Under the pieces are notes generated by a model, which was given only the letters and a program-made list of their open reading frames with translations, was not told where the DNA came from and did no database searches. Shown here piece by piece: positions 15,946 through 36,765 of a stretch of DNA of 64,000 bases (positions are counted from its first letter, which is position 1; every line of letters begins with the position of its first letter). A program made the translations under genes and the position numbers. Source of the stretch: Tabrizicola aquatica (GTDB taxonomy: Bacteria > Pseudomonadota > Alphaproteobacteria > Rhodobacterales > Rhodobacteraceae); assembly GCF_002900975.1 (NCBI RefSeq), contig NZ_PJON01000004.1, forward strand, positions 124,001-188,000. Reading direction: 5' to 3'.

Positions 15946-15954
15946 CGTCGTCTC

Positions 15955-16917: not shown

Positions 16918-17540
16918 TTGAACCTCACCACGCTTTCCGGCACCTGGCCGGGGTCCTCGGCGTCGATGTTGACGCCCTGGAAGGCGGCCATGCGCCGGGA
17001 ATAATGGTCGCGGACAAAAAGGCTTAGCCCGCAATGGCTGCATTTGAACGGGTCCGTCGCCACGTTCTCGGTGATCCCCTTGCAATGCACGCATTGCACC
17101 CGCCGCAGGGTGGACCCGCGCTGTTCCTTCTGGATCGAGGCGAAGGGAAAGCCGGTATTCATGATCTCGCGCTCGGCCTGACCGATCAGGCTTTCGGTGC
17201 CCGCAAGGTAGAACTGAGTTCCCATATGCGCATCCGCCAGCACCCGCACAAGTCGTGGCAGCAGCGCCGGAATCGTGGGGGCACGAAAGAACTGGGCCGC
17301 GCCCAAAGCCTCCAGCTTCGCCGATCCATCGGTCCCGGTCGGCCCGGGGCAGTACATCACATGGGCCACCGCCAGGATTTCCGAACGGTTGCTCGCCTTG
17401 GCCAGCAGGTCCGTCACGGCATCCGCACCGGCATCGTCGGCCACGATCACATGCAGCTTGCCCGGACGCGGTTCAAGCGGCGCATAGACCGGGCGCGACT
17501 TGATCGCGGGGGCGTCGATGGGGGTCAGGTCTATTTTCAC
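16914..17540 (-). CDS. dmmC: Dimethylamine monooxygenase subunit DmmC
   Basis: A 208-residue accessory subunit found with DmmA and DmmB. The N-terminal two thirds have an alpha/beta look (HVIVADDAGADAVTDLL, MGTQFYLAGTES), and the C-terminus carries a zinc-ribbon-like pair of CxxC motifs (Cys150/153 and Cys167/170: VQCVHCKG and FKCSHCG). The exact role of DmmC is not known to me; the four cysteines suggest a bound metal. It lies 55 bp after dmmD and overlaps dmmB by 4 bases. Confidence 0.88.
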   Translation of the reverse strand: MKIDLTPIDAPAIKSRPVYAPLEPRPGKLHVIVADDAGADAVTDLLAKASNRSEILAVAHVMYCPGPTGTDGSAKLEALGAAQFFRAPTIPALLPRLVRVLADAHMGTQFYLAGTESLIGQAEREIMNTGFPFASIQKEQRGSTLRRVQCVHCKGITENVATDPFKCSHCGLSLFVRDHYSRRMAAFQGVNIDAEDPGQVPESVVRFK

Positions 17541-20684: not shown

Positions 20685-20947
20685 TCCCTCACTCCTGTTG
20701 GAAGAAGCGGAGGTTCGCGGCCGGTGCCCTCCCGCATGGCCAGTCCATGGTCCGCTTCCGGTTTTCGTTTTCACCGGGACGTGGGGCGATAGGTTCCGCC
20801 GGTTTTCCTTCGTCCAGACAGTCAGGCTTTTGGTGCCGAACGCGGAAAGGAAAGCACGCTCCTGCCCGCATGGCGAGAAAAAATTCATCTACGCGAAAAA
20901 ATGTTTCCCAGGGTTTCGGCAGCCGCACGCGCTGCCCGGAAAACGTG
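20685..20947. other. Non-coding gap between permease start and tmm stop
   Basis: About 260 bp (300 bp with the hairpin at 20948) with no convincing gene. An in-frame extension of the permease through here reaches 20888 but has non-coding composition. The stretch 20755-20900 is richer in A/T and contains several TTTTC/GGAAA tracts (for example near 20760-20775, 20810 and 20850), so the permease promoter probably lies here, separate from tmm. Confidence 0.5.
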
Positions 20948-22511: not shown

Positions 22512-22925
22512 CTAACGGGCAACAGTCACCGAACAGCCCGCCTGGCCGGCCACCTCGGCCGCCACGGACCCCAGGACCAGACGCTTGACCCCACGCTTGT
22601 CGCCGGTGCCCATGACGATATGGTCGGCGGTGATTTCCTCGGCATAGGCGATGATCGCCGGACCCGCCCCGCGCGAAATCAGGACCGCGGTGGAAATCTC
22701 GCCCGCCCCGGCTGCCTTGGCCCGGGTAGCCGCGGCCGCCAGCAGCGCCTCGGCCTCGGCGTCGGTCCAATGGTTGATCGTCGGCCCCCGCGCCCCGCCG
22801 ACCGCAAGGTTGACAGCGCAGATCGTCAGATGCGCCCCGGTCAGTCTTGCAAGCTCTGCCGCGTGCAAAAGTCCGGTCTCGGCGTGGTCGCTGCCGTCCA
22901 CCGGGCAAAGGATCTTCTTGGTCAT
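22512..22925 (-). CDS. Universal stress protein, UspA family
   Basis: A 137-residue UspA-fold protein. It begins KKILCPVDGSDHAETGL, the nucleotide-fold start, and ends with the ATP-binding pattern GTGDKRGVKRLVLGSVAAEV, i.e. Gx2Gx9G(S). The ATG at 22925 is chosen over a longer frame to 23000 because the family start aligns here. It is a single-gene unit between gmaS and tmm, with terminators on both sides. A role in amine metabolism is suggested only by position. Confidence 0.88.
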   Translation of the reverse strand: MTKKILCPVDGSDHAETGLLHAAELARLTGAHLTICAVNLAVGGARGPTINHWTDAEAEALLAAAATRAKAAGAGEISTAVLISRGAGPAIIAYAEEITADHIVMGTGDKRGVKRLVLGSVAAEVAGQAGCSVTVAR

Positions 22926-23012
22926 TGCCGCACCCTCTGGTCCATTGGCTTCATGCATATGAAACCACAGCCGGGCGCGCGACACCTTGACCTGAGTCAA
23001 GAATCTTTCCCC

Positions 23013-23176: not shown

Positions 23177-24484
23177 TCAGACGTCCAGCGTGTTCTGCGT
23201 TTCCCAGGCCGAGAAGTGGCTGCAATAGTCGTTCCACTCCTTGTGCTTCAGCTTCAGGAAGGCGGACGAGAACGCATCCCCCATCATCGACTTCAGGGTC
23301 TTGTCCTTGTCGTATTCGCGCAGGGCGTCCAGCAGGTTCAGCGGCAGCTTCGGCGCGTTCTTCACCGTATGGCCCATCTGGTACATGTCGATGTCATAGC
23401 GCCGGCCCGGGTCGGCTTTGGTCCGCACGCCGTCCAGACCCGCCGCCAGGATCACCGCCTGCATCAGGTAGGGGTTCGCCGCCCCATCCGGCAGGCGCAG
23501 TTCGAACCGGCCCGGTCCCGGGACGCGGACCATGTGGGTCCGGTTGTTGCCGGTCCAGGTCACCGTATTCGGCGCCCAGGTCGCCCCGGACGAGGTGCGG
23601 GGTGCGTTGATCCGCTTGTAGCTGTTGACCGTCGGGTTGCAGATCGCCGCCAGTGCGCTGGCATGCTTCATGATCCCGCCCAGGAAGTTGCGGCCCTGAT
23701 CCGACAGGCCCAGTTCCTTCGACTTGTCCGCGAAGACGTTGGTCGACCCGTCCAGGCTCCAGACCGAGATATGGGCATGACAGCCCGAACCGGTCAGGCC
23801 CTTGAACGGCTTCGGCATGAAGGTGCAGCGCAAGCCGTGCTTTTCCGCCACCGACTTCATCATGAACTTGAAGAAGCTGTGCTTGTCGGCCGTGGCCAGC
23901 ACATCGTCATACTTCCAGTTCATCTCGTACTGGCCGGTCGCGTCCTCATGGTCGTTCTGGTAGGCTTCCCAGCCCAGCTCCAGCATATAGTCGCAGACCT
24001 CCGAGATGCAGTCATACTGCCGCATCATCGCCTGCTGGTCGTAGCAGGGCTTTTCGGCATTGTCGTAGGGGTCGGCGATCTTGTCGCCCTGCGGGGTGAG
24101 CAGGAAAAACTCCGGCTCCACCCCGGTCTTGACGCGCAGGCCGTCCTTGGCCGCTTCGTCCACCAGGCGGCGCAGCACGTTGCGCGGGGCCTGGTCCAGC
24201 GGCTTGTCTTCCATCACGCAGTTCGAGGCAACCCAGGCCACCTCTTTCTTCCACGGCAACTGGATCGCGGCATCCGGGTCAGGCACGGCCATCATGTCGG
24301 GATGGGCCGGCGTCAGGTCCAGCCAGGTGGCAAAGCCCGCAAAACCCGCACCGTCCACCGCCATGTCGTTGATCGCCTGAGTGGGCACAAGCTTTGCCCG
24401 CTGGCCACCGAACAGGTCGGTGTAGGAAACCATGAAATACTTGACGCCCTTTTCCTTTGCCCATTTGGCAAGGTCCTTAGCCAT
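23177..24484 (-). CDS. gmaS: Gamma-glutamylmethylamide synthetase (type III glutamine synthetase-like)
   Basis: A 435-residue ATP-dependent ligase joining monomethylamine to glutamate to give gamma-glutamylmethylamide, the entry step of the indirect methylamine pathway. It has the glutamine-synthetase catalytic fold: the Glu/metal segments TGVEPEFFLLTP and NDHEDATGQYEMNW, the ATP/glutamate site PKPFKGLTGSGCHAHIS, and NRTHMVRVPGPGRFELRLPD. ATG 24484 follows a CAGGGAG ribosome-binding site. It is last in the mgsABC-gmaS operon, 57 bp after mgsC; that neighbourhood, rather than motif alone, separates it from GlnT-type glutamine synthetases. Confidence 0.93.
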   Translation of the reverse strand: MAKDLAKWAKEKGVKYFMVSYTDLFGGQRAKLVPTQAINDMAVDGAGFAGFATWLDLTPAHPDMMAVPDPDAAIQLPWKKEVAWVASNCVMEDKPLDQAPRNVLRRLVDEAAKDGLRVKTGVEPEFFLLTPQGDKIADPYDNAEKPCYDQQAMMRQYDCISEVCDYMLELGWEAYQNDHEDATGQYEMNWKYDDVLATADKHSFFKFMMKSVAEKHGLRCTFMPKPFKGLTGSGCHAHISVWSLDGSTNVFADKSKELGLSDQGRNFLGGIMKHASALAAICNPTVNSYKRINAPRTSSGATWAPNTVTWTGNNRTHMVRVPGPGRFELRLPDGAANPYLMQAVILAAGLDGVRTKADPGRRYDIDMYQMGHTVKNAPKLPLNLLDALREYDKDKTLKSMMGDAFSSAFLKLKHKEWNDYCSHFSAWETQNTLDV

Positions 24485-24541
24485 CACTGTAACTCCCTGA
24501 GTCTTTTATCGTTTCTTCTGTCGCGACGTGGAAACGGCGGC

Positions 24542-25870
24542 TTACCAGCCGCCGTTCCGCCCCGGTATCCAGTTGGTGCCCGCCAGCGGTACACCCGCCA
24601 TCGCTGCCGCTTCGATGGTCAGCGAGCACAGATCCTCGGGCTCCAAGTTATGCAGGTGGTTCTTGCCGCAGGCCCGCGCGATGGTCTGCGCCTCCAGGGT
24701 CATCACCTTGAGATAGTTCTTCAGGCGGCGGCCACCGAGGACAGGATCGAACCGCTTGGACAGTTCCGGGTCCTGCGTGGTGATCCCGGCGGGGTCGCGG
24801 CCTTCGTGCCAGTCGTCATAGGCGTCGGCGGTGGTGCCCAGCTTCTGGTATTCTTCCTCCCAACGCGGGTCGTTGTCGCCCAGCGCGATCAGCGCCGCCG
24901 TCCCGATGGCGACCGCATCCGCGCCCAGCGCCATCGCCTTGGCCACGTCCGCGCCCGACCGGATGCCGCCCGAGACGATCAGCTGCACCTTGCGGTGCAT
25001 CCCCAGGTCCTGCAGCGCCTTCACCGCCTGCGGGATGCAGGCCAGGATCGGCATGCCGACATGCTCTATGAACACATCCTGCGTCGCCGCCGTGCCGCCC
25101 TGCATGCCGTCCAGCACGACCACATCAGCGCCCGCCTTCACCGCAAGCGCCGTGTCATAGTAGGGCCGCGCGCCGCCGACCTTGACGTAGATCGGCTTTT
25201 CCCAATCGGTGATCTCGCGCAGTTCCATGATCTTGATCTCAAGATCATCGGGCCCGGTCCAGTCCGGGTGCCGGCACGCACTACGCTGGTCGATGCCCTT
25301 CGGCAGGTTCCGCATGTTCGCCACGCGGTCGCTGATCTTCTGGCCCAGCAGCATCCCGCCGCCACCCGGCTTTGCGCCCTGGCCGACCACAACCTCGATC
25401 GCATCCGCGCGGCGCAGGTCGTCGGGGTTCATGCCGTAACGGCTGGGCAGATACTGATAGACCAGCGTCTTGGAATGCCCACGCTCTTCCTCGGTCATCC
25501 CGCCGTCGCCGGTGGTGGTCGAGGTGCCGGCTTCCGATGCGCCCCGGCCCAGGGCCTCTTTGGCGGGGCCGGACAGCGCCCCGAAAGACATCCCCGCGAT
25601 GGTGATCGGGATATCCAGGTGGATCGGCTTCTTGGCAAAGCGCGTCCCCAGCCAGACGTCCGTCGAGCATTTCTCGCGGTAGCCTTCCAGCGGATAGCGG
25701 CTGATCGAGGCGCCCAGGAAAAGAAGGTCATCAAAGTGCGGCAGATGCCGCTTCGTGCCGCCGCCGCGGATATCGTAGATGCCAGAGGCGGCCGCGCGGC
25801 GGATTTCGGCGTTCACCGCGGGGGTGAAGGTCGCCGAGAAACGGGGCGGGGTACGGGGAAGATCGGTCAT
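24542..25870 (-). CDS. mgsC: N-methylglutamate synthase subunit C (FMN-binding glutamate synthase family)
   Basis: A 442-residue FMN enzyme related to the synthase domain of glutamate synthase (GlxD type). FMN and substrate motifs: AGMSFGALSGPAKEALGRGA near 92, GDGGMTEEERGHSK near 120, KPGGGGMLLGQKI near 170, and VLDGMQGGTAATQD plus VSGGIRSGADVAKAMALGAD in the second half of the barrel. It moves the glutamyl nitrogen so that N-methylglutamate is formed from gamma-glutamylmethylamide. Starts 9 bp after mgsB. Very high similarity to ammonia-transferring homologues means function is read from the operon. Confidence 0.92.
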   Translation of the reverse strand: MTDLPRTPPRFSATFTPAVNAEIRRAAASGIYDIRGGGTKRHLPHFDDLLFLGASISRYPLEGYREKCSTDVWLGTRFAKKPIHLDIPITIAGMSFGALSGPAKEALGRGASEAGTSTTTGDGGMTEEERGHSKTLVYQYLPSRYGMNPDDLRRADAIEVVVGQGAKPGGGGMLLGQKISDRVANMRNLPKGIDQRSACRHPDWTGPDDLEIKIMELREITDWEKPIYVKVGGARPYYDTALAVKAGADVVVLDGMQGGTAATQDVFIEHVGMPILACIPQAVKALQDLGMHRKVQLIVSGGIRSGADVAKAMALGADAVAIGTAALIALGDNDPRWEEEYQKLGTTADAYDDWHEGRDPAGITTQDPELSKRFDPVLGGRRLKNYLKVMTLEAQTIARACGKNHLHNLEPEDLCSLTIEAAAMAGVPLAGTNWIPGRNGGW

Positions 25871-25879
25871 TCCTGTGCC

Positions 25880-26569
25880 TCAGTACGACGACGCATTGTC
25901 GATGTTGAAATTATACAGCTTCCGGGCCGAACCATAGCGCTTGAACTCTTCCGGCTTGGCCTTGCCGTCCGCTTCGCCGCGCTTCAGAAGGTCGGCCAGC
26001 AGCGCCAGATGTTCTGGCCGCATCTCTTTCTCGATGCAGTCCGCGCCCAGCGATTTCACCGAACCGCGCACGAAAAGCCGCGCTTCGTACAGGCTGTCGC
26101 CCAGCGCATCGCCCGCATCGCCCAGCACCACCAGGTTCCCGGACTGCGCCATGAAGGCCGACATGTGGCCGATGGAGCCATGCACCACAATGTCGATGCC
26201 CTTCATCGACACACCGCAGCGGCTGGAGGCGTTGCCCTTGATGACCAAGAGACCACCCCGCCCGGTCGCGCCGGCATACTGGCTGGCGTTGCCGTCGATG
26301 ATCACCGTGCCCGACATCATGTTTTCCGCCACGCCCGGCCCGGCGCTGCCCTTGATGCGGATCGTCGCGTGCTTGTTCATGCCCGCGCAGTAGTACCCGG
26401 TCGAGCCATGCACCGTGATGTTCACCGGCGCGTCCACCCCCGCCGCGATGGCGTGGGCGCCCTTGGGATTGATGACCTCCCAGTCGGTCATGTTGGTCTG
26501 GCCTTTCAGCGCATGCAGCGCCGAGTTGAGCGCCCGCAGGCCCTCTTTGCCCAGATCGAAACTCTGCAT
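25880..26569 (-). CDS. mgsB: N-methylglutamate synthase subunit B (GltB C-terminal-like beta-helix)
   Basis: A 229-residue protein made almost entirely of the GXGXG domain of glutamate synthase, a right-handed beta-helix. Repeated turns are visible: VHGSTGYYCAGMN, IKGSAGPGVAENM, IDGNASQYAGATGRGG, IKGNASSRCGVSM and VHGSIGHMSAFMAQSG. It scaffolds the other two Mgs subunits. The ATG at 26569 lies 4 bp after the mgsA stop; longer frames run into mgsA and are rejected. The C-terminus ends in YNFNIDNASSY. Confidence 0.92.
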   Translation of the reverse strand: MQSFDLGKEGLRALNSALHALKGQTNMTDWEVINPKGAHAIAAGVDAPVNITVHGSTGYYCAGMNKHATIRIKGSAGPGVAENMMSGTVIIDGNASQYAGATGRGGLLVIKGNASSRCGVSMKGIDIVVHGSIGHMSAFMAQSGNLVVLGDAGDALGDSLYEARLFVRGSVKSLGADCIEKEMRPEHLALLADLLKRGEADGKAKPEEFKRYGSARKLYNFNIDNASSY

Positions 26570-26573
26570 TCTC

Positions 26574-27470
26574 TCAACGCTCCCAGAAGTAGACGGTGGC
26601 GGGTTCGGGTTCCCAGACGCGGGCGTTCTCGATGCCCGGCAGGTTGACCAGCGCCCGGTATTCCGATCCGAAGGCCACATACTCGTCGGTCTCGGCCATC
26701 ACGGCGGGCTTGCAGGCGATGGGGTCACGGACGACGCCGAAGCCGTTCTTGGTGCCGACGACAAAGGTGTAGAACCCGTCCAGATCGTCCAGGCCGGATT
26801 CCAGCGCGGTGCCCAGATCCTCGCCTTCCTTCAGCTTCTGGCTGACATAGGCGGCGGCGACCTCGGTGTCGTTCTGGGTCTCGAAGGTCATGCCCTTGCG
26901 GATCAACTCGCGCCGCAGCCCGTTGTGGTTCGACAGGCTGCCGTTATGCACCAGGCACTGGTCCGGCCCGGTCGAGAACGGGTGCGCACCCATCGTGGTC
27001 ACGGCGGATTCGGTCGCCATGCGGGTGTGGCCGATGCCGTGGGTGCCCTTCATCCGGGCCACGTCAAAGCGGGCGGCCACGTCCTTGGGCAGGCCGACTT
27101 CCTTGAAGATCTCGATGCTGTCACCCGCGCTCATCACCTTCACGCCGGGGCGCAGGTGCGACAGGGCCGAGCGTGCGGCGTCGATCTGGTCCAGCGGCAC
27201 TTCCAGCACGGCATGGGTGGACTTGATCTTCATCGTGACCGGCTGGCCGATGGCATCATGCATGTCGCCGTCCAGGTTCTTGAAATCGGCGTCCGGGGTG
27301 GCCGACTGGATGGTGATCTTGCCCAACCCGTCCTTGGCCCCGCCATAGATCGCGATCCCGGCACTGTCGGGGCCGCGGTCGGTCATGGTGATCAGCATGT
27401 CTGTCAGCAGTTCGCCCAGCCGGGGTTCCAGCTTGGGGTCCTTCAGAAACAGTCCAACGATGCCGCACAT
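26574..27470 (-). CDS. mgsA: N-methylglutamate synthase subunit A (class II glutamine amidotransferase)
   Basis: A 298-residue amidotransferase subunit. After removal of Met the catalytic nucleophile is Cys2 (MCGIVGLF), followed by DRGPDSAGIAIYGG, GIGHTRMATES and CLVHNGSLSNHNGLR, the glutaminase fold. In this pathway it hydrolyses gamma-glutamylmethylamide and passes methylamine to the synthase subunit. ATG 27470 is fixed by the Cys2 rule; a longer frame to 27530 is rejected. First gene of the mgsABC-gmaS operon, divergent from the small-membrane-protein operon across a 243-bp regulatory region. Confidence 0.93.
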   Translation of the reverse strand: MCGIVGLFLKDPKLEPRLGELLTDMLITMTDRGPDSAGIAIYGGAKDGLGKITIQSATPDADFKNLDGDMHDAIGQPVTMKIKSTHAVLEVPLDQIDAARSALSHLRPGVKVMSAGDSIEIFKEVGLPKDVAARFDVARMKGTHGIGHTRMATESAVTTMGAHPFSTGPDQCLVHNGSLSNHNGLRRELIRKGMTFETQNDTEVAAAYVSQKLKEGEDLGTALESGLDDLDGFYTFVVGTKNGFGVVRDPIACKPAVMAETDEYVAFGSEYRALVNLPGIENARVWEPEPATVYFWER

Positions 27471-27530
27471 GGATTCGTCTCTCCTTTGCGTGATTGAGGT
27501 GACGCTAGCATCACGTTTTGCGTCCATCAA

Positions 27531-27713: not shown

Positions 27714-28001
27714 GTGACGGACCTTAATCGGCGGATTGAGGCGATGCACCGACGCGACGTGCTTGTGGCATGGGCGTTCGTGATTGGCCTCTGGTTTTCC
27801 GTGATCTTCGTGGCCATCGCCACCTGGGACCTGGCACCCAACGGCACGGCCCGGACGCTGCTTCTGATCGCCGGGGCTGTGGTGCTGCTGTTCAATACTG
27901 CCGCCATCCTGGCGATGTTGCGGCATTACCGCGAGGATCGCGACTTCATGTACGGGATCGACATCAAGTTCCTGGACGAAGCCAAGGGGCGGAGGAACTG
28001 A
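27714..28001 (+). CDS. Small two-helix membrane protein, permease operon gene 1
   Basis: A 95-residue protein starting at GTG, with an excellent GGGAGGAAA ribosome-binding site 4 bases upstream. Two membrane helices are clear: about 16-39 (VLVAWAFVIGLWFSVIFVAI) and 47-68 (ARTLLLIAGAVVLLFNTAAI), followed by a charged cytoplasmic tail with HYREDRDFMYGIDIKFLDE. I do not recognise the family. It is first of four closely spaced genes ending in an APC permease, divergent from mgsABC-gmaS, so a role in uptake or sensing of a methylamine is likely by context only. Confidence 0.82.
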   Translation: MTDLNRRIEAMHRRDVLVAWAFVIGLWFSVIFVAIATWDLAPNGTARTLLLIAGAVVLLFNTAAILAMLRHYREDRDFMYGIDIKFLDEAKGRRN

Positions 28002-28002
28002 G

Positions 28003-28380
28003 ATGACCCATTACAAACCCCCGACCCAGGGCAAGGCCAGCCAGCTTTTCGACGTGGTCGTGCTGGTGGTCCTGACCGTCGGCGCGCTGTTCGTGCCGCT
28101 TTGGATGGGCATGGCCGGCGCGGCCAAGTCCGTCGCCACCCCGGTCGCCAACCCCACATGGGAGGCCCTGGGCCAGAACGCAGCGCAGGCCGCCAAGTAC
28201 GAGGCCCTGGGCTACACCCCGGAAACGGCGCATGACCTGATCCTGGCCCGCTTCGACTACAGCTTCTCGGTCACCGCGCTTCTGGTGATGATCGGGGTCA
28301 TCCTGCTGTACTATTTCCTGATCCTGCGGTTTTCCGAAGTGGAATACCGCGAGGTCATTTCCGAAAAATTCGGGGAGTAA
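28003..28380 (+). CDS. Small two-helix membrane protein, permease operon gene 2
   Basis: A 125-residue protein, ATG one base after the previous stop, ribosome-binding site GGAGGAAC within that gene's end. Helix 1 spans about 17-39 (DVVVLVVLTVGALFVPLWMG), helix 2 about 89-110 (ALLVMIGVILLYYFLILRF). Between them is a roughly 45-residue loop, probably periplasmic, with NPTWEALGQNAAQAAKYEAL and two aromatic residues before helix 2. The C-terminus (SEVEYREVISEKFGE) is acidic. No known family recognised. Co-transcribed and probably co-translated with its neighbours. Confidence 0.83.
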   Translation: MTHYKPPTQGKASQLFDVVVLVVLTVGALFVPLWMGMAGAAKSVATPVANPTWEALGQNAAQAAKYEALGYTPETAHDLILARFDYSFSVTALLVMIGVILLYYFLILRFSEVEYREVISEKFGE

Positions 28381-28386
28381 CCTGCC

Positions 28387-28572
28387 ATGGATCTGTGGAA
28401 CTGGCTTGAATACGGCGCCTGGGCGCTTTCGGCGCTTCTGGGGCTGCACATGGCCTTCGACTGGCTCAAGACCGACAGCACCTATTCCGAAGACGTCCTC
28501 ACCTCCTCGCGCGAAGGCGAGCTTGAGGCGATGGCCGAAGAACACGCCGAAAAGCACGGGGTGAGATCATGA
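28387..28572 (+). CDS. Small single-helix membrane protein, permease operon gene 3
   Basis: A 61-residue protein with one hydrophobic helix at about 8-26 (EYGAWALSALLGLHMAFDWL) and a strongly charged C-terminal half rich in Glu and His (EGELEAMAEEHAEKHGVRS). Its stop overlaps the permease start as ATGA (28569-28572), so permease translation is coupled to it. A short single-helix protein in front of a transporter resembles small regulatory subunits, but no family is recognised. Confidence 0.8.
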   Translation: MDLWNWLEYGAWALSALLGLHMAFDWLKTDSTYSEDVLTSSREGELEAMAEEHAEKHGVRS

Positions 28573-30005
28573 GCGACTTCGACATCACCTCGCAGACCAT
28601 GGACGGCATGGGGCCGCATGGCACCAAGGTCGGCCTGCTGCGCGTCCTGGGGCCGGCCCACGTCTGGGCCCTGGGCGTCGGCATCGTTCTGGTCGGCGAA
28701 TACATGGGCTGGAACTTTGCCGTCGGCAAAGGCGGTGCCTATGCCGCGCTGATCGCCTGCTGGTTTGCGGGCATCCTCTATTCCTGCGTCGCCATGATCG
28801 ATTCGGAGGTCACCTCGACCGTCGCCTCGGCCGGCGGGCAGTATACCCAGGCCAAACACATCGTCGGGCCGCTGATGGCCTTCAATGTCGGCCTCTACCT
28901 TGTCTTCGCCTACACCATGCTGGAGGCCGCGAACGCGATCACGGCGGGCTATCTCTTCTCGGTCGTGGCCACGATGTCCGGCCATACCGGAGAGCTGGAC
29001 CAGCGGCCCTTCATAATCCTGGTCATCATGTTCCTGGCCTGGCTGAACTATCGCGGCGTGCTGGCGACGCTGACCTTCAACCTGGTCATCACCTCCATCG
29101 CCTTCTGCGCCATCCTGGTCCTGTTCCTGTCCACCTCGGGCATCCTGGGAGAGAGCATCCTGGAACACGCCGCGCTGTTCGAAGGGCACGAACTGCCCTA
29201 CGGCTGGATCGGCGTGCTGGCGGCGATGCACTTCGGCCTTTGGTACTATCTTGGCATCGAAGGCACGACCCAGGCCGCGGAAGAGGTCCGCTCGCCCGCC
29301 CGCTCGCTGCCCTTCGGGACGCTGGCCGGGATCATGACGCTCTTGATCGCGGCGACGCTGACCTGGTTCATGTGCTCGGGCGTGCTGCCCTGGGAATACC
29401 TGGGCGACGGGGTGAACGGTTCGGTGGCACCCCTGTTCGACACGGCACGGCTCTCGGGCTCGACCGCGCTGGTCTGGCTTCTGGGCTTCGGCACCCTCTT
29501 TGCCACGCTGGCCTCGGCCAACGGCTGCATCAACGACGCCTCGCGGGCCTGGTTCGCCATGGGCCGCGACAAGTACCTGCCCGGCTGGTTCGGGGCGGTG
29601 CATCCGCGCTATCGCACCCCATATCGGTCGATCATCTTCCTGGTCCCGATCGCGCTGATCTTCGCCCTTGGCGCGCCCCTGGACCAGGTGATCACCTTCT
29701 CGATCCTCTCGGGCCTGCTGGGCTATACCTTCATGCCGCTGAACATCATCCTCTTCCGGCGCAAATGGCCGTTGGAGACGATCAAGCGCGGGTATGAACA
29801 CCCGTTCCACCCGATCCCCGCGATCACGCTCTTGACGCTGTGCGGCGTGACCTTCTTTGCGGTGTTCCTGGGCTACGGCACCCAGCTTGTCGCGATGATC
29901 GGCTTCTACATCGTCGTGTCGCTGTGGTTCCACTTCTGGCGCTACCGCTTCGTGAACCGGGGCGCGCAGTTCACCATGCCCTGGCCAAAGCCGCGCGGCT
30001 ACTAA
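28569..30005 (+). CDS. APC superfamily permease, candidate methylamine/ethanolamine-type amine transporter
   Basis: A 478-residue membrane protein with about 12 hydrophobic segments. The ethanolamine-permease-like features are GPAHVWALGVGIVLVGEYMGWNFAVGKGG split over TM1 (residues about 28-57), a conserved VTSTVASAGGQYTQA near 80 and GIEGTTQAAEEVRSPARSLP near 231. It differs from the larger permease at 18891. It is the fourth gene of an operon with three tiny membrane proteins and is divergent from the gamma-glutamylmethylamide operon. Monomethylamine or a related short amine is the probable substrate, by context. Confidence 0.87.
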   Translation: MSDFDITSQTMDGMGPHGTKVGLLRVLGPAHVWALGVGIVLVGEYMGWNFAVGKGGAYAALIACWFAGILYSCVAMIDSEVTSTVASAGGQYTQAKHIVGPLMAFNVGLYLVFAYTMLEAANAITAGYLFSVVATMSGHTGELDQRPFIILVIMFLAWLNYRGVLATLTFNLVITSIAFCAILVLFLSTSGILGESILEHAALFEGHELPYGWIGVLAAMHFGLWYYLGIEGTTQAAEEVRSPARSLPFGTLAGIMTLLIAATLTWFMCSGVLPWEYLGDGVNGSVAPLFDTARLSGSTALVWLLGFGTLFATLASANGCINDASRAWFAMGRDKYLPGWFGAVHPRYRTPYRSIIFLVPIALIFALGAPLDQVITFSILSGLLGYTFMPLNIILFRRKWPLETIKRGYEHPFHPIPAITLLTLCGVTFFAVFLGYGTQLVAMIGFYIVVSLWFHFWRYRFVNRGAQFTMPWPKPRGY

Positions 30006-30010
30006 GGCAA

Positions 30011-30040
30011 ATGGCCCGCGCCCCGTTCGGCGCGGGCCAT
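30011..30040 (+). terminator. Hairpin after the permease gene
   Basis: Perfect 12-bp stem (ATGGCCCGCGCC / GGCGCGGGCCAT) with a 6-base loop, 5 bp after the permease stop and 8 bp before the next gene. No T-run follows, so it may protect the mRNA 3' end or attenuate rather than fully terminate. Confidence 0.6.
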
Positions 30041-30047
30041 CCCCCGG

Positions 30048-30722
30048 ATGTCCCCCCTCATTCCCCTCGGCTTCGCTCTTGCCCTGCTCGGCCTCTGGCT
30101 GGGCTACCGGCTTGTCACCGAATCCCGCAGCCGCACCGCCGCCCGCGCCGCCTATTTCGACGCGGTGAAACCCCTGTTCCAGGACGGCGAGACGCGCCTG
30201 CAACCCACCGGCTTTCCCCGCATGACCGGCCGCCGCGACGGGCTGGCCTTCGATCTGCAGGCGATCCCCGACACGCTGACCTTCCGCAAGCTTCCCGCGC
30301 TGTGGGTCCTGGTCACCCTGCCCGAGCCGCTGCCCTTGCACGCCAGTCTCGACCTCATGGCCCGCCCGTCCGGCAACGAACCCTTCACCCGCTTCGCCAG
30401 CCTGCCCCAGTCGCTGCCGACGCCACCGGATCTGCCGAAAGAGGTGGCCGTGCGCAGCGACGATGCCAGCCGCATCCCGCCACCCGACCTGATCGCCCGC
30501 CATGCCGACCTGTTCGACGACCAGCGGGTCAAGGAACTGGTCCTGTCCCCCAAGGGCCTGCGCATCGTGATCCTGGCCGAGGAAGCCGACCGCAGCCGTT
30601 ACCTGATCTTCCGCGAGGCTGAAATGGGCATGACCCCGCTTGCCGCCGCGCGCCTGGAGCCGCTGCTGGACCGCTTGCACCAGTTGCGCAAGGATGTGCT
30701 GGCCCTGACGGAGACGCCATGA
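30048..30722 (+). CDS. Membrane-anchored hypothetical protein, 224 residues
   Basis: An N-terminal hydrophobic anchor (about 3-20, LIPLGFALALLGLWLGYRL) precedes a soluble alpha/beta region containing LQPTGFPRMTGRRDGLAFDL and RYLIFREAEMGMTPL. Composition and third-position GC agree with a real gene. I do not recognise a domain. It begins 43 bp after the amine permease and its stop overlaps the start of the next gene (ATGA), so the two hypothetical genes are a coupled pair, probably read from the same operon as the permease. Confidence 0.75.
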   Translation: MSPLIPLGFALALLGLWLGYRLVTESRSRTAARAAYFDAVKPLFQDGETRLQPTGFPRMTGRRDGLAFDLQAIPDTLTFRKLPALWVLVTLPEPLPLHASLDLMARPSGNEPFTRFASLPQSLPTPPDLPKEVAVRSDDASRIPPPDLIARHADLFDDQRVKELVLSPKGLRIVILAEEADRSRYLIFREAEMGMTPLAAARLEPLLDRLHQLRKDVLALTETP

Positions 30723-30994
30723 AACCGCCGTTGAACCCCTACCTCGTCCTGGCCGTCGCCGTGGCCCTGCCCGGCATGGGCCAGGTCCTGAACCGCCAGC
30801 CGGTGCGCGGGCTGATCTTCGTCTGCTTTGCCGTCCTTCTGGGGGGCTTCACCCTCAAGACCGCCGCGCCCGACGTGTCATTTGTCGGCAAGCTTGCGGG
30901 CGGGCTATTCGTCTGGGCGATGGCGATCCTCGATGCCTACAAGACCGCGCGCATCCGCCGCGCCGTCTGGGATCACCGAAACGCTCCTCGATGA
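30719..30994 (+). CDS. Small membrane protein with PGMGQ motif, 91 residues
   Basis: A 91-residue protein with two to three hydrophobic stretches (about 8-22, 30-47, 58-74). ALPGMGQVLNRQPVRGLIF near residues 16-34 resembles the PGxGQ-x5-G pattern of several small membrane-protein families of unknown function. The last codons and the stop fall inside a copy of the REP-like repeat that starts at 30984, so the repeat may have changed the C-terminus. Coupled to the preceding gene through ATGA. Confidence 0.72.
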   Translation: MKPPLNPYLVLAVAVALPGMGQVLNRQPVRGLIFVCFAVLLGGFTLKTAAPDVSFVGKLAGGLFVWAMAILDAYKTARIRRAVWDHRNAPR

Positions 30995-31045: not shown

Positions 31046-31702
31046 CTAGCCCTGGGGATACGAAATCACCGAAAGATACCGCGCCGGCAGCTTGACCAGG
31101 ACCTCCGGCCCATGCGGCGCATCCGCGTCGAAGAACAGGCTGTCGCCCGGCTTCAGCGGATAGACCTGGTCGCCGTGGCGATAATCCACCTCGCCCTCCA
31201 GCATGAACAACAGTTCCAGCCCACCATGCTGGAAGGTCGGAAACGTATCGCTCTCTTTCGACAGCGTGATCATGTAAGGCTCGACCACCACGCCCGAGTT
31301 GTTCGACCCGATATGCCCCAACAGGTGATACTGATGCCCCGCACGGGTGCCGCGCCGCTCGATCTCCAGGTGGTCCCCCGCCTTCACATGCTGCGCCTCG
31401 CGCCGCTCTTCATAGCTGCGGAAGAAGGACGTCACCGGGACCGAGAAGGCGTGGCTCAGCACCTGCAAGGTCGTCAGGCTGGGCGAGGTGTTGCCGTTTT
31501 CGATCTTCGACAGCATCCCGATCGACAGGCCGGTGACATTGGCCAGGTCGGCGACCGTCATCCCCTGCTGGCGACGAAAGTTCCGCACCTCGCGGCCGAT
31601 GGCGGCTTCCAGGTTCCGTTCGGTGATCTCGCGGACACGGTGCGGGTCCTGTTCAAAGGCGGGCTTGCCGCGAGGAAGCGTTACGCTGGCGTCTTCGGAC
31701 AT
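31046..31702 (-). CDS. XRE family regulator with C-terminal cupin domain
   Basis: A 218-residue regulator: a Cro/C1-type helix-turn-helix at about 31-90 (IGREVRNFRRQQGMTVADLA, then LSIGMLSKIENGNTSPSL) and a cupin small-ligand domain at about 130-205 (HGGLELLFMLEGEVDY, LKPGDSLFFDADAPHGPEVL). Such regulators often sense amines or amino acids. It lies between the permease operon and mgdABCD, and has a TTTCC/GGAAA palindrome 25 bp before its start, suggesting autoregulation. It is the best candidate for the regulator that recognises similar palindromes elsewhere in the island. Confidence 0.9.
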   Translation of the reverse strand: MSEDASVTLPRGKPAFEQDPHRVREITERNLEAAIGREVRNFRRQQGMTVADLANVTGLSIGMLSKIENGNTSPSLTTLQVLSHAFSVPVTSFFRSYEERREAQHVKAGDHLEIERRGTRAGHQYHLLGHIGSNNSGVVVEPYMITLSKESDTFPTFQHGGLELLFMLEGEVDYRHGDQVYPLKPGDSLFFDADAPHGPEVLVKLPARYLSVISYPQG

Positions 31703-31764: not shown

Positions 31765-32325
31765 CTACCAGGCGGCCGCGGCGGCCACTTCCAGGGCGTG
31801 CAACAGGCTGCCGGCCGACGACCGCGCCCCGATGATCCGCACCTGTCCGCGACCGTGGCGGATCAGGTAGCAGCCCAGATGCTCGATCACCGTGCGGGTG
31901 GCAAAGCCATCGGGCGCGGCGGGGAAGTCGACGTTGCACAGCCGTTCCAAGAGTGGGGCCAGATCCGGGGCCGTCAGGTCATAGATCACCCAGGCGTCAC
32001 TCTGTTCGGTCACGCTGGCCGCATCGCCCAGCGCGGCCTTCAACTGGTCCGCGATCAGCTCGTGGCTGGCAAAGGGCGCCTCGACGAACCACATCTCGGG
32101 CGCGACCCAGAAGGCGTTGTAGACCGCCCCACCCGCATGGCGCGCAGCGTCCGGCAACGGAACCCCCGCCGCCTGCGCCGCCCGCGCCAGGTCCGCCATC
32201 CGCCCCCGCCGCGCCGCGACCGAGGCCAGCGCCACGTCGCACCGCTCGGTGATCGTCACCGGGCCGACCACCGCCACCGCCGCCTGGCGCGCGCCAAGCG
32301 CCGTCATTGCCTGCAACTCAGCCAC
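31765..32325 (-). CDS. mgdD: N-methylglutamate dehydrogenase subunit D (sarcosine oxidase gamma-like)
   Basis: A 186-residue SoxG-type subunit with the GcvT-related fold (GPVTITERCDVALASVAARR, VTEQSDAWVIYDLTAPDLAPL, VIEHLGCYLIRHG). It packs against the large subunit in the heterotetramer. A GTG at 32325 is preferred: it follows GGGGAGC by 8 bases and overlaps the mgdC stop by 8 bases. An ATG at 32307 is the alternative. Last gene of mgdABCD. Confidence 0.87.
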   Translation of the reverse strand: MAELQAMTALGARQAAVAVVGPVTITERCDVALASVAARRGRMADLARAAQAAGVPLPDAARHAGGAVYNAFWVAPEMWFVEAPFASHELIADQLKAALGDAASVTEQSDAWVIYDLTAPDLAPLLERLCNVDFPAAPDGFATRTVIEHLGCYLIRHGRGQVRIIGARSSAGSLLHALEVAAAAAW

Positions 32326-35221
32326 GAAGCCGCTCCCCTTCCGGATCAAAGAAATGCGGGCTGACGATCTCGACCTCGGTGTCCTGCCCGCTCAGCAGGT
32401 TCACCGCGCGCATCCGCCGCCCGATCTTCTGGTCGCCCGCCTTCAGATAGCCCAACGCGATGTCGCAGCCGATATGCGGGGAATAGACCTTGGAGGTCAG
32501 CCACCCGCCATCGTTCGCCGCCACCGCCGCCGCCCCCTTTTCCAGGAAATGGCTGCCCGCGCTCAGCTTGCCCTTCGGATCGACCGGCTTCACGCCGACA
32601 AGGCGATACCCCTCCGCCTCCACCAGCCCCTCGCGCTGCGAAAGCACCATGCCGATGGAGTCCTTCTTCTTCGACACCATCTTGCCCAGACCCATGTTCA
32701 GCGCCGTGGACTGGCCGTTCAACTCGCCGCCCGCGACGTGGCCCTTTTCGATCCGCATCACGCCCAGCGCCTCGGTGCCATAGACGATCGGATCGTACTC
32801 CGCCCCGCGCGCCAGCATCTCGCGCAGAAGCGCATCGCCATAGCGCGTGGGAACCGCGATCTCATAGGCCAACTCGCCCGAAAAGCTGATGCGGAAAAGC
32901 CGCGCCCGCAGCCCGCCGCAGACCGTGATGTTGCGCGCGCCCATATAGGGGAAAGCCGCGTCGCTGATATCCTGATCGACCACCTTTTCCAGCACTTTCC
33001 GCGCATTGGGCCCGGCGACCGAGAACTGCGCCCAGGCTTCCGTGGTGCTGATCAGCTGCACGTCCATGTCCGGCCACAGCACCTGACGGCAGTATTCCAG
33101 ATGCCGGAACACCGGGACCGCATTGGCCGTGGTCGTGGTCATCACATATTCATGCTCGCCCATCCGGGCGGTGGTGCCGTCGTCAAAGACGATCCCATCC
33201 TCGCGCAGCATCAGGCCATAGCGGCACTTGCCCACGGCCAGGGTGCTGAACGTGTTGGCATAGACCCGGTCCAGGAAGGCCCCCGCATCGGTGCCCTGGA
33301 TGTCGATCTTGCCCAGTGTGGTCACATCGCAGATACCCACGGACCGCCGCGTCGCCAGCACCTCGCGGTCCACCGACTGCCGCCATTCCGTCTCGCCGGC
33401 CTTCGGCACCCATTGGGTGCGCAGCCACATCCCGACCTCGACAAAGACCGCGCCTTGCTCTTTGGCCCAATGGTGGCTGGGCGTCAGGCGGAACGGCTTG
33501 AACTCTGTCCCTCGCGACCGCCCCGCCAGCGCGCCCATCGCGACCGGAGTATAGGGCGGCCGATAGATCGTGGTCCCGGTATCGGGGATCGAGCGTCCCG
33601 TCAACTCGGCCATGATCGCCAGGCCCAGCACGTTGCCGGTCTTGCCCTGGTCGGTCGCCATACCCAGCGTGGTGTAGCGCTTCAGATGCTCGACGCTGGT
33701 AAAGTTCTCCTGCTTGGCCAGCTTCACGTCCTTCACGGTCACGTCGTTCTGCTGGTCGATCCAGGCCCGGCCCTTGCCGTGCGCCACATGCCACAGGGCC
33801 TTGATCCGCACCGGCGCATCCTCGGCCTCGGGCAGGTCGGCCGCGCCGGTCAGACCCAGCGCCTCGACCGCCGCATCGCGCCCCGTGCGCAGCGCGCCAT
33901 GCGTGGACAGCACCCCGGCCGCCGCCCCCGCGACCATAAGGCCCGGAGGCCCCTCGGCCCCCGGCACAAAGGCCGCAATCGTCGGGTCATAGACGGGACG
34001 CGAGCGGTGATGCGAATGGACGTTCACATTCGGGTTCCACCCGCCCGAAACGCCCAGCGCCTCGACCGCGATTTCGCGGGTCCGGCCCTTGGCATCGCGC
34101 ACGATGATCGACTTCAGCCCCAACCGGCCCGAGGTGTCGATCACCTCGTCGCCCTGCCGGCTGTCCAGCACCGCGACGACCTCGACCCCCTTGGCCTTCA
34201 GATCCTCGGCCGTGCGCAGCCCGTCGTCGTTGTTGGTGAACACCGCCACCCGCTGACCCACCTTGACGCCCCAGCGGTTCGCATAGGCGCGCAGGGCACC
34301 CGCCAGCATGATGCCGGGACGGTCGTTGTTCTCGAACGCAATCGGCCGCTCGGTCGCGCCGCCCGCCAGGATCGCCCGGTGCGAGTAGATGCGCCACAGC
34401 ACCTGCCGCGGCTTGCCGGCCGCAGGCAGCGCCAGGTGGTCGCTCACCCGCTCTACCGCGCCATAGATCCCGTGGTCAAAGGCGCCGATCACCGTGGTCC
34501 GCGGCATCAGCCGGACGTTCGGCAGGCTGGCCAGTTCCGCCACCACCCCGGCCGCCCAGTCCGCGCCATGCGTCCCGCCAACGGCAAGGGTTTCGGCATT
34601 CAGCCGGCCGCCCATGCGGAAATCCTCATCCGCCAGGATCACCCGCTTGCCCGCACGACCCGCCGTCAGCGCCGCCATCAACCCGGTAGGACCGGCCCCG
34701 ATGACCAGCAGGTCACAGTGCAGGAACCCCTTGTCATAGTCGTCCGGGTCCTCTTCCCGACTGACCGAGCCAAGACCCGCCGCACGGCGAATGATCGGCT
34801 CATACAGCTTTTCCCAGAAGGCCTTGGGCCACATGAAAGTCTTGTAGTAGAAGCCCGCCGCAAAGAAGGTGGACAGCCGGTCATTGATCCCCATCGCGTC
34901 AAAGCGCAAGCTGGGCCAGCGGTTCTGGCTGTTCGCGCTCAGCCCGTCGAACAGCTCCGCCACCGTGGCCCGCGTGTTCGGCTCTTGCCGCCCGCCGCTA
35001 CGCAGTTCGACCAGCGCGTTCGGCTCTTCCGACCCAGCGGTCATCGGCCCGCGCGGCCGGTGATACTTGAAGCTGCGGCCCATCAGCCGCACCCCGTTGG
35101 CCAGAAGGGCCGAGGCAAGCGTATCCCCCGGATGCCCCTGATAGGGGATGCCGTCGAAGGTAAAACGCAGGGTCTTGGTGCGGTCGATCTGGCCGCCCGA
35201 AATCCGATTAGACTGGGTCAT
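32318..35221 (-). CDS. mgdC: N-methylglutamate dehydrogenase subunit C (sarcosine oxidase alpha-like)
   Basis: A 967-residue large subunit. The N-terminal ferredoxin-like Fer2_4 domain (FDGIPYQGHPGDTLASALLA, residues 18-37) lacks cluster cysteines as usual, then an NAD(P)-binding Rossmann domain with VIGAGPTGLMAALTAGRAGK near 172-191, a middle region, and a C-terminal GcvT/aminomethyltransferase domain (about 590-960) that binds tetrahydrofolate. With the other subunits it oxidises N-methylglutamate to glutamate and a methylene unit. ATG 35221 overlaps the mgdB stop (ATGA). A true sarcosine oxidase cannot be excluded by this subunit alone; the gmaS/mgs neighbours favour Mgd. Confidence 0.92.
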   Translation of the reverse strand: MTQSNRISGGQIDRTKTLRFTFDGIPYQGHPGDTLASALLANGVRLMGRSFKYHRPRGPMTAGSEEPNALVELRSGGRQEPNTRATVAELFDGLSANSQNRWPSLRFDAMGINDRLSTFFAAGFYYKTFMWPKAFWEKLYEPIIRRAAGLGSVSREEDPDDYDKGFLHCDLLVIGAGPTGLMAALTAGRAGKRVILADEDFRMGGRLNAETLAVGGTHGADWAAGVVAELASLPNVRLMPRTTVIGAFDHGIYGAVERVSDHLALPAAGKPRQVLWRIYSHRAILAGGATERPIAFENNDRPGIMLAGALRAYANRWGVKVGQRVAVFTNNDDGLRTAEDLKAKGVEVVAVLDSRQGDEVIDTSGRLGLKSIIVRDAKGRTREIAVEALGVSGGWNPNVNVHSHHRSRPVYDPTIAAFVPGAEGPPGLMVAGAAAGVLSTHGALRTGRDAAVEALGLTGAADLPEAEDAPVRIKALWHVAHGKGRAWIDQQNDVTVKDVKLAKQENFTSVEHLKRYTTLGMATDQGKTGNVLGLAIMAELTGRSIPDTGTTIYRPPYTPVAMGALAGRSRGTEFKPFRLTPSHHWAKEQGAVFVEVGMWLRTQWVPKAGETEWRQSVDREVLATRRSVGICDVTTLGKIDIQGTDAGAFLDRVYANTFSTLAVGKCRYGLMLREDGIVFDDGTTARMGEHEYVMTTTTANAVPVFRHLEYCRQVLWPDMDVQLISTTEAWAQFSVAGPNARKVLEKVVDQDISDAAFPYMGARNITVCGGLRARLFRISFSGELAYEIAVPTRYGDALLREMLARGAEYDPIVYGTEALGVMRIEKGHVAGGELNGQSTALNMGLGKMVSKKKDSIGMVLSQREGLVEAEGYRLVGVKPVDPKGKLSAGSHFLEKGAAAVAANDGGWLTSKVYSPHIGCDIALGYLKAGDQKIGRRMRAVNLLSGQDTEVEIVSPHFFDPEGERLRG

Positions 35222-35502
35222 TTCGACCGCCCCTTGCTGCGCGCCACGTCGCGCGCCAGTTCCACCCTGGTGATCTCATGCGTGACGGTGTTCCGCGTCA
35301 CCACCAGCCAGGACCGGTCGCCCTGTTCGTGATACCACAGCTCGCGATGCTCGCCGGCCGGGTTGTCCCGGTTGTACAGCCAGTCATGGAACACCTCGAC
35401 GCCCGCCGTCATGCCGTCGGGCCGGTCGATCAGGGCGGCGTCGCCCAGATAGACGAATTCCTGCGCGTCGCGGGGTCCGAGGATCGGATGATGAATGATC
35501 AT
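35218..35502 (-). CDS. mgdB: N-methylglutamate dehydrogenase subunit B (sarcosine oxidase delta-like, zinc ligands lost)
   Basis: A 94-residue SoxD-type subunit, recognisable by GPRDAQEFVYLGDA, FHDWLYNRDNPAGEHRELWY and VTRNTVTHEI. In the characterised delta subunit zinc is held by a CPxC pair and a later His-x3-Cys. Here the first pair is His5 and Leu8 (HHPILGPRD) and the second is His58 and Asp62 (YHEQGD), so three of four ligands are replaced and zinc is unlikely to bind. Between mgdA (12 bp) and mgdC (4-base overlap). Confidence 0.9.
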   Translation of the reverse strand: MIIHHPILGPRDAQEFVYLGDAALIDRPDGMTAGVEVFHDWLYNRDNPAGEHRELWYHEQGDRSWLVVTRNTVTHEITRVELARDVARSKGRSK

Positions 35503-35514
35503 TCGCTTATTCCG

Positions 35515-36765
35515 TCAATGCAGGTTCGGCTGGGCGCCCTGGCCCTTTTCGTCGATCATCCGGCCCTTGAGGAACCGGTCGAAGCGATAGGCCGTGGCCG
35601 TCTGGTGCGACGCGTCCTTCGCCAGCAGGTGGGCAAAGGCCCAGCCGCTGGCAGGGGTTGCCTTGAACCCGCCATAGCACCAGCCGCCGTTGAAATAGAG
35701 CCCCTCGACATGCGTCTTGTCGATGATGGGCGAGCCGTCCATCGACATGTCCATGATCCCGCCCCAACTGCGCAGCAACCGCACGCGGCCGATCGCCGGC
35801 ATCAGCGCCATGCCACCCTCGGCCACGTCCTCGACCACCGGCAGATTCCCGCGTTGCGCGTAAGAGTTGTAGCCGTCGATGTCGCCACCGAAGACCAGAC
35901 CGCCCTTGTCGGACTGGCTGACGTAGAAGTGCCCGGCGCCAAAGGTCATCACGCCGTCGATCAGCGGCTTCAGCCCTTCGGAAACAAAGGCTTGCAACAC
36001 GTGGCTTTCGATCGGCAGGCGCATCCCGGCATGTGCCATGACCTTGGACGACGACCCGGCCACCGCCACACCGACCTTCTTCGCGCCGATGTATCCGCGG
36101 GTGGTTTCCACCCCCTTGATGCGGCCGTTCTCGATCCGCATGCCGGTCACTTCGCAGTTCTGGATCAGGTCCACCCCGCGCAGATCGGCCCCGCGCGCAT
36201 AGCCCCAGGCCACCGCGTCATGCCGCACCGTCCCGCCCCGGCGCTGCATCAAGGCACCCTTGATCGGAAAGCGGGCGTTGTCGAAGTTCAGCCAGGGATA
36301 CATCTGGCGCACCTGCTCGCGGTTCAGCAGTTCCGCGTCCGCCCCGTGCATCCGCATCGCATTGCCGCGTCGGGTGGCCGCATCGCGCTGCGCATCGGTG
36401 TGGATCAGGTTGATGATCCCGCGCTGGCTGACCATGGCGTTATAGTTGAAGTCCTGCTCCAACCCTTCCCACAGCTTCAGGCTGAACTCGTAGAACGGCT
36501 CGTTTCCGTCCAGCAGGTAGTTCGACCGGATGATCGTGGTGTTCCGCCCGACGTTCCCGCCGCCCAGATAGCCCTTCTCCAGCACCGCGATCCGGGCCTG
36601 GCCGAACTCTTTCGCCAGGTAGTAGGCCGTCGCCAGCCCGTGCCCACCGCCGCCGATGATGATATAGTCGTATTCCGCCTGAGGCGTGGCGTCCCGCCAC
36701 ACCGGCTTCCAGCCCTTGTGGCCCGTCAGTGCCTCGGCAATGACCCGAAATCCCGAATAGCGCAC
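35515..36765 (-). CDS. mgdA: N-methylglutamate dehydrogenase subunit A (sarcosine oxidase beta-like, FAD/FMN)
   Basis: A 416-residue DAO-family flavoprotein that carries the amine-oxidising site. The FAD motif IIIGGGGHGLATAYYLA lies at residues 35-51, and His182 in RHDAVAWGYAR is the residue that covalently holds FMN in heterotetrameric sarcosine oxidase. The C-terminal half has SWGGIMDMSMDGSPIIDKT and YFNGGWCYGGFKATPASGWA. The start is a GTG at 36765 with CAGGAGGT seven bases before it. First gene of mgdABCD (order soxBDAG). Confidence 0.93.
   Translation of the reverse strand: MRYSGFRVIAEALTGHKGWKPVWRDATPQAEYDYIIIGGGGHGLATAYYLAKEFGQARIAVLEKGYLGGGNVGRNTTIIRSNYLLDGNEPFYEFSLKLWEGLEQDFNYNAMVSQRGIINLIHTDAQRDAATRRGNAMRMHGADAELLNREQVRQMYPWLNFDNARFPIKGALMQRRGGTVRHDAVAWGYARGADLRGVDLIQNCEVTGMRIENGRIKGVETTRGYIGAKKVGVAVAGSSSKVMAHAGMRLPIESHVLQAFVSEGLKPLIDGVMTFGAGHFYVSQSDKGGLVFGGDIDGYNSYAQRGNLPVVEDVAEGGMALMPAIGRVRLLRSWGGIMDMSMDGSPIIDKTHVEGLYFNGGWCYGGFKATPASGWAFAHLLAKDASHQTATAYRFDRFLKGRMIDEKGQGAQPNLH

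Follow-up and report, generated by a model that had tools for sequence, protein, structure and literature searches.

Opposite the methylamine-assimilation operon of Tabrizicola aquatica, three genes for very small membrane proteins lead directly into the gene of an APC-family permease, which raises the question of whether these proteins work together and, if so, on what substrate. The genes lie in a stretch of 64,000 nucleotides (the window; contig NZ_PJON01000004.1, positions 124,001 to 188,000, forward strand), and a preliminary description had proposed that the small proteins and the permease form a four-gene unit. We found a block of six genes, here called P1, P2, P3, PERM, DUFa and DUFb, the order of which is conserved in relatives far beyond chance. 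The six genes almost certainly represent a single functional unit and probably encode a multi-subunit importer of monomethylammonium, possibly with its own helper proteins, a reading in which the subunit contacts and the transport itself are predictions. The components of the block are the following (positions in the window).

P1, 27714..28001, + strand: 95 residues; two membrane helices, both ends predicted from charge to be cytoplasmic; conserved FNTAAI.AML.HY.ED.
P2, 28003..28380, + strand: 125 residues; two helices flanking a loop of about 56 residues, predicted to be periplasmic; invariant PTWE.L.Q and RFDY.F.
P3, 28387..28572, + strand: 61 residues; one likely helix and a charged tail predicted to be cytoplasmic; SSREGE invariant in 31 aligned rows.
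PERM, 28569..30005, + strand: APC-family permease of 478 residues; ATGA overlap with P3; invariant Glu44 in helix 1 (VGEYMGWNF).
Intercistronic hairpin between PERM and DUFa, 30011..30040, + strand: 12 pairs; a hairpin occurs in most relatives, its sequence differing between clades.
DUFa, 30048..30722, + strand: 224 residues; N-terminal helix and an alpha+beta domain predicted to be cytoplasmic; predicted fold like TtfA and CCDC47.
DUFb, 30719..30994, + strand: 91 residues; about three hydrophobic segments; 4-base overlap with DUFa; weak likeness to DUF6677.

The coordinates and lengths first given for the three small genes and the APC permease, their spacings of 1, 6 and -4 bases and the ATGA overlap that accounts for the last of these are all present in the window sequence. 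The strong ribosome-binding sites reported for them were found before P1 and P2 (GGAGG) and P3 (GGGGAG), while that of PERM is weaker. For each of the six genes, the ratio of nonsynonymous to synonymous substitution rates was between 0.06 and 0.44 (nine relatives per gene). The small frames are thus genuine genes.

When the genome collection was scanned with P2, 157 relatives were detected, of which the best 80 loci were examined. Together with seven stretches from genomes of the family, these made 87 loci, or 84 distinct places, because three places were counted twice (L009, L010 and L011 are the same as L025, L046 and L053); the short loci L001 to L008 were left out of the block counts. Judged by six protein profiles, P1-P2-P3-PERM-DUFa-DUFb was complete in 82 of the 87 loci (79 of the 84 distinct places; an earlier BLAST count gave 81 of 87), and all 82 complete loci had the genes in the same order on one strand. 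Four of the five incomplete loci were cut by contig ends (L013, L019, L020 and L064). The fifth, L072 from Pseudaminobacter manganicus, has the first five genes and no recognisable DUFb, with no contig end nearby. Median spacings in the relatives were 2, 9, 9, 57 and -4 bases. Protein alignments were made from 29 to 31 chosen rows out of about 85.

The block extends beyond these loci. The PERM profile was found in 14 of 398 genomes of the phylum, including the window's own, and in 4 of 143 genomes in the class of one such genome. All 16 stretches from genomes with the profile other than the window's own were analysed. With three more reached through P2 (19 in total), a Paracoccus plasmid and a Paraburkholderia plasmid, they form a wider set of 21 loci, two of which repeat places already counted (L123 and L142 are the same as L087 and L075); G495 lies outside this set, and three weak P2 matches with stop codons were disregarded. 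P1, P2, P3 and PERM were found in all 21 loci (19 new places), DUFa in 20 and DUFb in 19, and the misses fell in two loci that both end at a contig end. PERM identity to the window copy was 62 to 85% among the wider relatives displayed, and the block is spread over at least two GTDB classes within a single phylum. On plasmid pAMI6 of Paracoccus aminophilus, the six genes stand opposite glnT (gmaS) and are annotated as three hypothetical proteins, an amino acid permease and two further hypothetical proteins. Thus, the small genes accompany the permease in relatives, as the proposal of a four-gene unit required, and the unit is larger than proposed, since DUFa and DUFb belong to it.

The genes on either side of the block point to methylamine, which the preliminary description had suggested from the position of the permease.

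mgsA-mgsB-mgsC-gmaS, 23177..27530, - strand: divergent methylamine-assimilation operon; mgsA probably starts at 27470, and gmaS scores above the TIGR03105 cut-off.
mgdDCBA-like genes, 31765..36765, - strand: N-methylglutamate dehydrogenase genes beyond DUFb.

The mgd names are tentative, and the mgs names were assigned by position, in agreement with the mgsABC-gmaS operon described in PMC4543880 (papers given by PMC number are represented here by passages of their texts). The block is divergent from this operon as a whole; its nearest gene is mgsA, and gmaS, initially named as the divergent neighbour, is the farthest and last gene of the operon. In 44 of the 80 loci, gmaS was found within the examined stretch, and in the other 36, some of whose stretches end early, it was found elsewhere in 33 genomes, giving 77 of 80 in total. 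The block itself is constant, as had been expected, but its position next to gmaS is not. The gene is also present in 18 of the 20 genomes of the wider set (G786, the genome of L075, and G910, that of L087, are counted in the 80 as well). Among 198 genomes of the family, gmaS occurs in 63 (61 above the curated cut-off), in seven of the eight genomes with the block and in 56 of the 190 others (Fisher's exact test: p = 0.0015, not corrected for relatedness). The block nearly always accompanies the GmaS pathway, and by this association methylamine remains the best guess for the substrate; import of methylamine by the block is likely on comparative grounds.

PERM is an APC protein, scoring 113.4 bits against AA_permease_2 (PF13520; cut-off 27). 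Its best NCBIfam model was that of ethanolamine permease (TIGR00908), with 179.8 bits, below the cut-off of 381.75. In the APC family, a stretch of helix 1 binds the carboxylate of amino acids. At this position, the amino-acid transporter GkApcT has GTGIF, whereas PERM has VGEYMGWN, with a Glu that is invariant in all 31 aligned block permeases and in the seven displayed from the wider set. Such an acidic residue suits an amine without a carboxylate. It would point to such a substrate in general and is not specific to methylamine, as D, E or Q also occupies the position in nine of ten distant APC permeases used as controls, the tenth resembling GkApcT.

The partner genes are associated with one type of APC permease. 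P2 was found in eight of the 198 family genomes, and PERM (E 1e-60) in the same eight. In the plasmid collection, 22 records carry a block-type permease with 66 to 85% identity. With a looser limit (E 1e-10), 181 plasmid records were obtained, and the 60 listed among these 181 showed no permease between 31% and 65% identity, the non-block permeases among these 60 having at most 31% identity to PERM. Ten of these distant permeases, chosen by us from the 60 and including six annotated as ethanolamine permeases, served as the controls; profiles of the five partners gave no match with E below 0.04 within 3 kb on either side of them. The phage collection contained only distant APC proteins (six records, at most 28% identity).

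Among known carriers, the ethanolamine permease Eat shares with PERM the fold family, the best NCBIfam model and the acidic residue in helix 1, with SGEYFGWS in four of six Eat proteins compared against VGEYMGWN in PERM. Eat differs from PERM in sequence (at most 30% identity among the eat records listed), and the six compared stand without partner genes; ethanolamine ammonia-lyase genes adjoin four of these six annotated eat genes. The trimethylamine N-oxide (TMAO) permease TmoP/TmdP is also an APC permease but belongs to a separate subfamily, PERM giving no match to its model (NF053774) at E 1. One such permease is encoded in the same window at 18891-20888 (821 bits with NF053774). The listed open frame of this gene begins about 87 residues ahead of the model match; therefore, the actual start probably lies farther inside the frame.

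Among solved structures, the bacterial protein that PERM matched best was GkApcT (5oqt, 6f34). Its crystals also contained the single-helix protein MgtS, and heavy chains accompany mammalian APC relatives (PMC5803215). The earlier assertion that APC transporters normally act alone was therefore too strong. GkApcT-MgtS resembles the block in combining an APC transporter with a single-helix small protein. It differs in that MgtS was contributed by the expression host and is oriented with a cytoplasmic N-terminus (PMC5803215), opposite to the orientation predicted for P3, and in that counterparts of P1, P2, DUFa and DUFb are missing.

Hydropathy analysis gave two helices each for P1 and P2, in agreement with the preliminary description. 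The single helix proposed for P3 is likely but not certain in the window copy, in which the best 19-residue mean was 1.03; in 50 of 80 relatives, the value was at least 1.4. A fusion of P3 and PERM in L125, suggested by a long open frame, was rejected because the frames show a separate, overlapping P3. The P2 loop of about 56 residues carries the invariant residues and is predicted to be periplasmic, while the ends of P1 and P3 are conserved, charged and predicted to be cytoplasmic. The loci of one genus have about 35 extra residues inside the outer loop of P2 (L131 6585-7064, L132 7590-8096 and L133 7440-7949). The predicted structure of P2 was poor (predicted TM-score 0.35), and searches of solved structures with P1, P2, P3 and DUFa found nothing credible. 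The window copies of P1, P2 and P3 had no Pfam or NCBIfam family above cut-off. Relatives of P1 showed weak family matches, the best being DUF4153 (E 1e-4, 4 of 31 members, among 25 of 51 families listed).

DUF485 and DUF4212 are small two-helix subunits encoded beside sodium:solute symporters, carriers of related fold. P1 is like them in being a small two-helix protein beside a carrier. Kinship of P1 with these families was considered, and no relation by sequence or profile was found: its window copy did not match them, the hhalign probability was 0.2% with DUF485 (1 sequence) and 0.7% with DUF4212 (9 sequences), and neither family was seen for the 31 P1 members among the 25 of 51 families listed. 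A DUF4212 symporter subunit is encoded elsewhere in the window's own genome (G000:C6:269-499).

The window copy of DUFa had no Pfam or NCBIfam match above cut-off, and that of DUFb had only weak matches. The predicted model of DUFa was confident (pLDDT 93.1), and its best structural match was TtfA (6t84; Z 11.9, root-mean-square deviation 3.2 over 152 residues, 10% identity). Chains of three translocon structures, which we take to be CCDC47, followed with Z of 11.5, 10.3 and 9.8, the remaining rows reaching at most 7.0. Type III secretion chaperones were also among the structural matches, with Z of 5 to 7, and the Foldseek rows beyond TtfA and the translocon chains were treated as noise. CCDC47 is present in structure 9i78 (PMC12572126) and is part of a chaperone for multi-span membrane proteins (PMC9630114, PMC12572126). 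The accessory protein TtfA uses its first 205 residues to bind the transporter MmpL3 (PMC6593404). DUFa would thus share with TtfA a predicted fold and partnership with a large transporter; it differs in the transporter family and in the low identity of about 10%, and TtfA is conserved among mycolate producers (PMC6593404). CCDC47 of the PAT complex is similar to DUFa in fold to the extent of the Z values above, but it is eukaryotic and ribosome-bound and likewise shows about 10% identity. Based on fold alone, a helper role is therefore plausible, and we tentatively regard DUFa and DUFb as possible assembly helpers. DUFb weakly resembled DUF6677, with matches in 28 of 30 members and a best E of 2e-5, and two other families of unknown function, and Asterix was not among the 12 families matched by the 30 DUFb members in this comparison of sequence families. 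It is quite unlikely, though conceivable, that bacteria have in DUFa and DUFb a dedicated counterpart of the PAT intramembrane chaperone (CCDC47-Asterix), encoded with its client: a membrane-anchored cytoplasmic domain and a small membrane partner which would build the PERM/P1/P2/P3 carrier and be made in smaller amounts through the hairpin.

The stretch between PERM and DUFa in the window folds with -29.4 kcal/mol and contains the 12-pair hairpin. The corresponding region was analysed in 68 of the 80 loci, excluding ten with gaps outside 20 to 130 bases and two without both genes, and a hairpin with z below -2 and a stem of at least seven pairs was found in 56 of these 68 (the shuffles keep base counts only). 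Stem sequences differ among clades; therefore, what is maintained seems to be the structure and not the sequence. The hairpin may protect the upstream mRNA or cut read-through, giving more carrier than helper protein. Short T runs follow some stems, and a role as a weak terminator is conceivable. In two loci of the wider set, the space between PERM and DUFa is occupied by a universal stress protein gene (L126 6757-7191 and L139 8102-8536), the product of which could regulate the carrier. Between 27400 and 31200, no sigma-70-like promoter was found, and terminator-like sites were not above shuffles. A 10-base palindrome upstream of P1, TTTCCCTACG (27621 and 27647), was considered as an operator and rejected, because the 260 bases ahead of P1 contain both core half-sites in none of the relatives.

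In the model that we infer, the products of all six genes would belong to a single membrane transport system importing monomethylammonium for the N-methylglutamate (GmaS/Mgs/Mgd) pathway. PERM would be the carrier, surrounded by P1, P2 and P3 as stable small subunits, possibly in the fixed stoichiometry first suggested from the tight spacing. P2 would present its conserved loop on the outer face, and the charged, conserved ends of P1 and P3 would lie at the inner one. DUFa may be a membrane-anchored cytoplasmic factor assisting the assembly or activation of this multi-span complex, and DUFb its small membrane partner. The mRNA hairpin between the four carrier genes and the two putative helper genes probably allows the two groups to be made in different amounts. 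That P1, P2 and P3 are physical subunits of the carrier is probable.

Several observations weigh against this model. The constancy of gene order shows a functional unit and is not proof of a complex, P3 is only weakly hydrophobic in the window copy, and L072 indicates that DUFb is not strictly needed. The fold match of DUFa is at about 10% identity with Foldseek E values of 0.0015 to 0.0017 (above 0.001), and 12 of the 68 hairpin regions miss the threshold. With regard to the pathway, three of the 80 block genomes have no gmaS match, namely the metagenome-assembled genomes L037, which nevertheless holds mgs genes beside the block, and L064, and Paracoccus sp. IB05 (L089). Nor was a match found in two of the 20 wider-set genomes, of which one, G982, has a completeness rating of 100%. 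The tie to the pathway is therefore not absolute. G982 carries a whole block (L140) and could show a role of the block outside the pathway. Conversely, 56 of the 63 gmaS genomes of the family are without the block; the pathway therefore does not need it. Finally, an amt gene lies inside the gmas-mgsABC operon of a Pseudomonas strain (PMC8292978).

PERM might also carry the substrate alone, with P1, P2, P3, DUFa and DUFb as regulators that switch or stabilise it and are not structural subunits. Small-protein regulators of transporters are well known (PMC10710835), and GkApcT made without the MgtS it binds moved less substrate, with similar initial rates (PMC5803215). The small size and charged tail of P3 and the stress protein genes between PERM and DUFa would also suit such a role. 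However, regulators that were optional should be missing from some loci, and P1, P2 and P3 were all retained in the 21 further loci, so that we consider regulation alone rather improbable. A different substrate or direction, such as import of another amine or export, with dimethylamine, N-methylglutamate, gamma-glutamylmethylamide and ammonium as candidates, might explain the few block genomes without gmaS and the presence of tmm or tmoP in the examined stretch of 27 of the 80 loci. The presence of gmaS in nearly all block genomes of both sets argues against it, although tmm and dmm were compared by neighbourhood only, and the helix 1 Glu and the likeness to ethanolamine permeases fit a small non-carboxylate amine better than amino-acid derivatives. 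We regard this explanation as unlikely.

A sensor, in which the small proteins and PERM as a non-transporting receptor would report methylamine to the cell, could account for the conserved, predicted cytoplasmic tails of P1 and P3 and the cytoplasmic domain of DUFa, and one P1 relative weakly matches the histidine-kinase membrane region HisKA_7TM (E 0.001). However, PERM scores as an ordinary APC permease, in Pfam, the window copies gave no convincing signalling domain (kinase, receiver or other), and none was seen in the P1, DUFa and DUFb sets (for P1, among the 25 of 51 families listed). This makes a sensor highly improbable, and the importer with small subunits is the explanation that we retain.

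Other genes of the window are related to methylated amines. At 13872-17094, an AraC-type regulator gene accompanies dimethylamine monooxygenase-like genes (DmmA-like and HODM-like); the window therefore contains an island for the degradation of trimethylamine, dimethylamine and monomethylamine. A universal stress protein gene (22512-23000) lies between gmaS and tmm, inside the methylamine cluster. A gene at 31046-31702 encodes a helix-turn-helix and cupin regulator, PuuR-like below cut-off, which is found near the block in many loci and is a candidate regulator of the block.

The titles and opening lines of abstracts in the literature searched (open-licence full texts, excluding supplements) contained no description of the six-gene block, and it is not named in the passages of PMC13390433, PMC5520151, PMC5023235, PMC4543880, PMC5023228, PMC9800807, PMC8292978, PMC5017803 and PMC8235418. 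In one of these passages, unnamed "co-clustered conserved proteins" and amino-acid permeases respond to methylamine (PMC5023235), and these proteins may include the block. A carrier with accessory proteins is a known kind of system, and the six-gene set has no family name or description in the literature searched. For four of its protein families (P1, P2, P3 and DUFa), the window copies reach no Pfam or NCBIfam cut-off.

Methylamine is widespread as a source of nitrogen and carbon, and the genes for its breakdown are well known. The sole importer named for the pathway in the literature passages was amt in one Pseudomonas operon (PMC8292978). The constant six-gene block is a concrete candidate for a methylamine importer. 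If P1, P2 and P3 are indeed its subunits, the block would represent an architecture new to this very large transporter family, in which a bacterial APC carrier has several small partners, all of them obligate.

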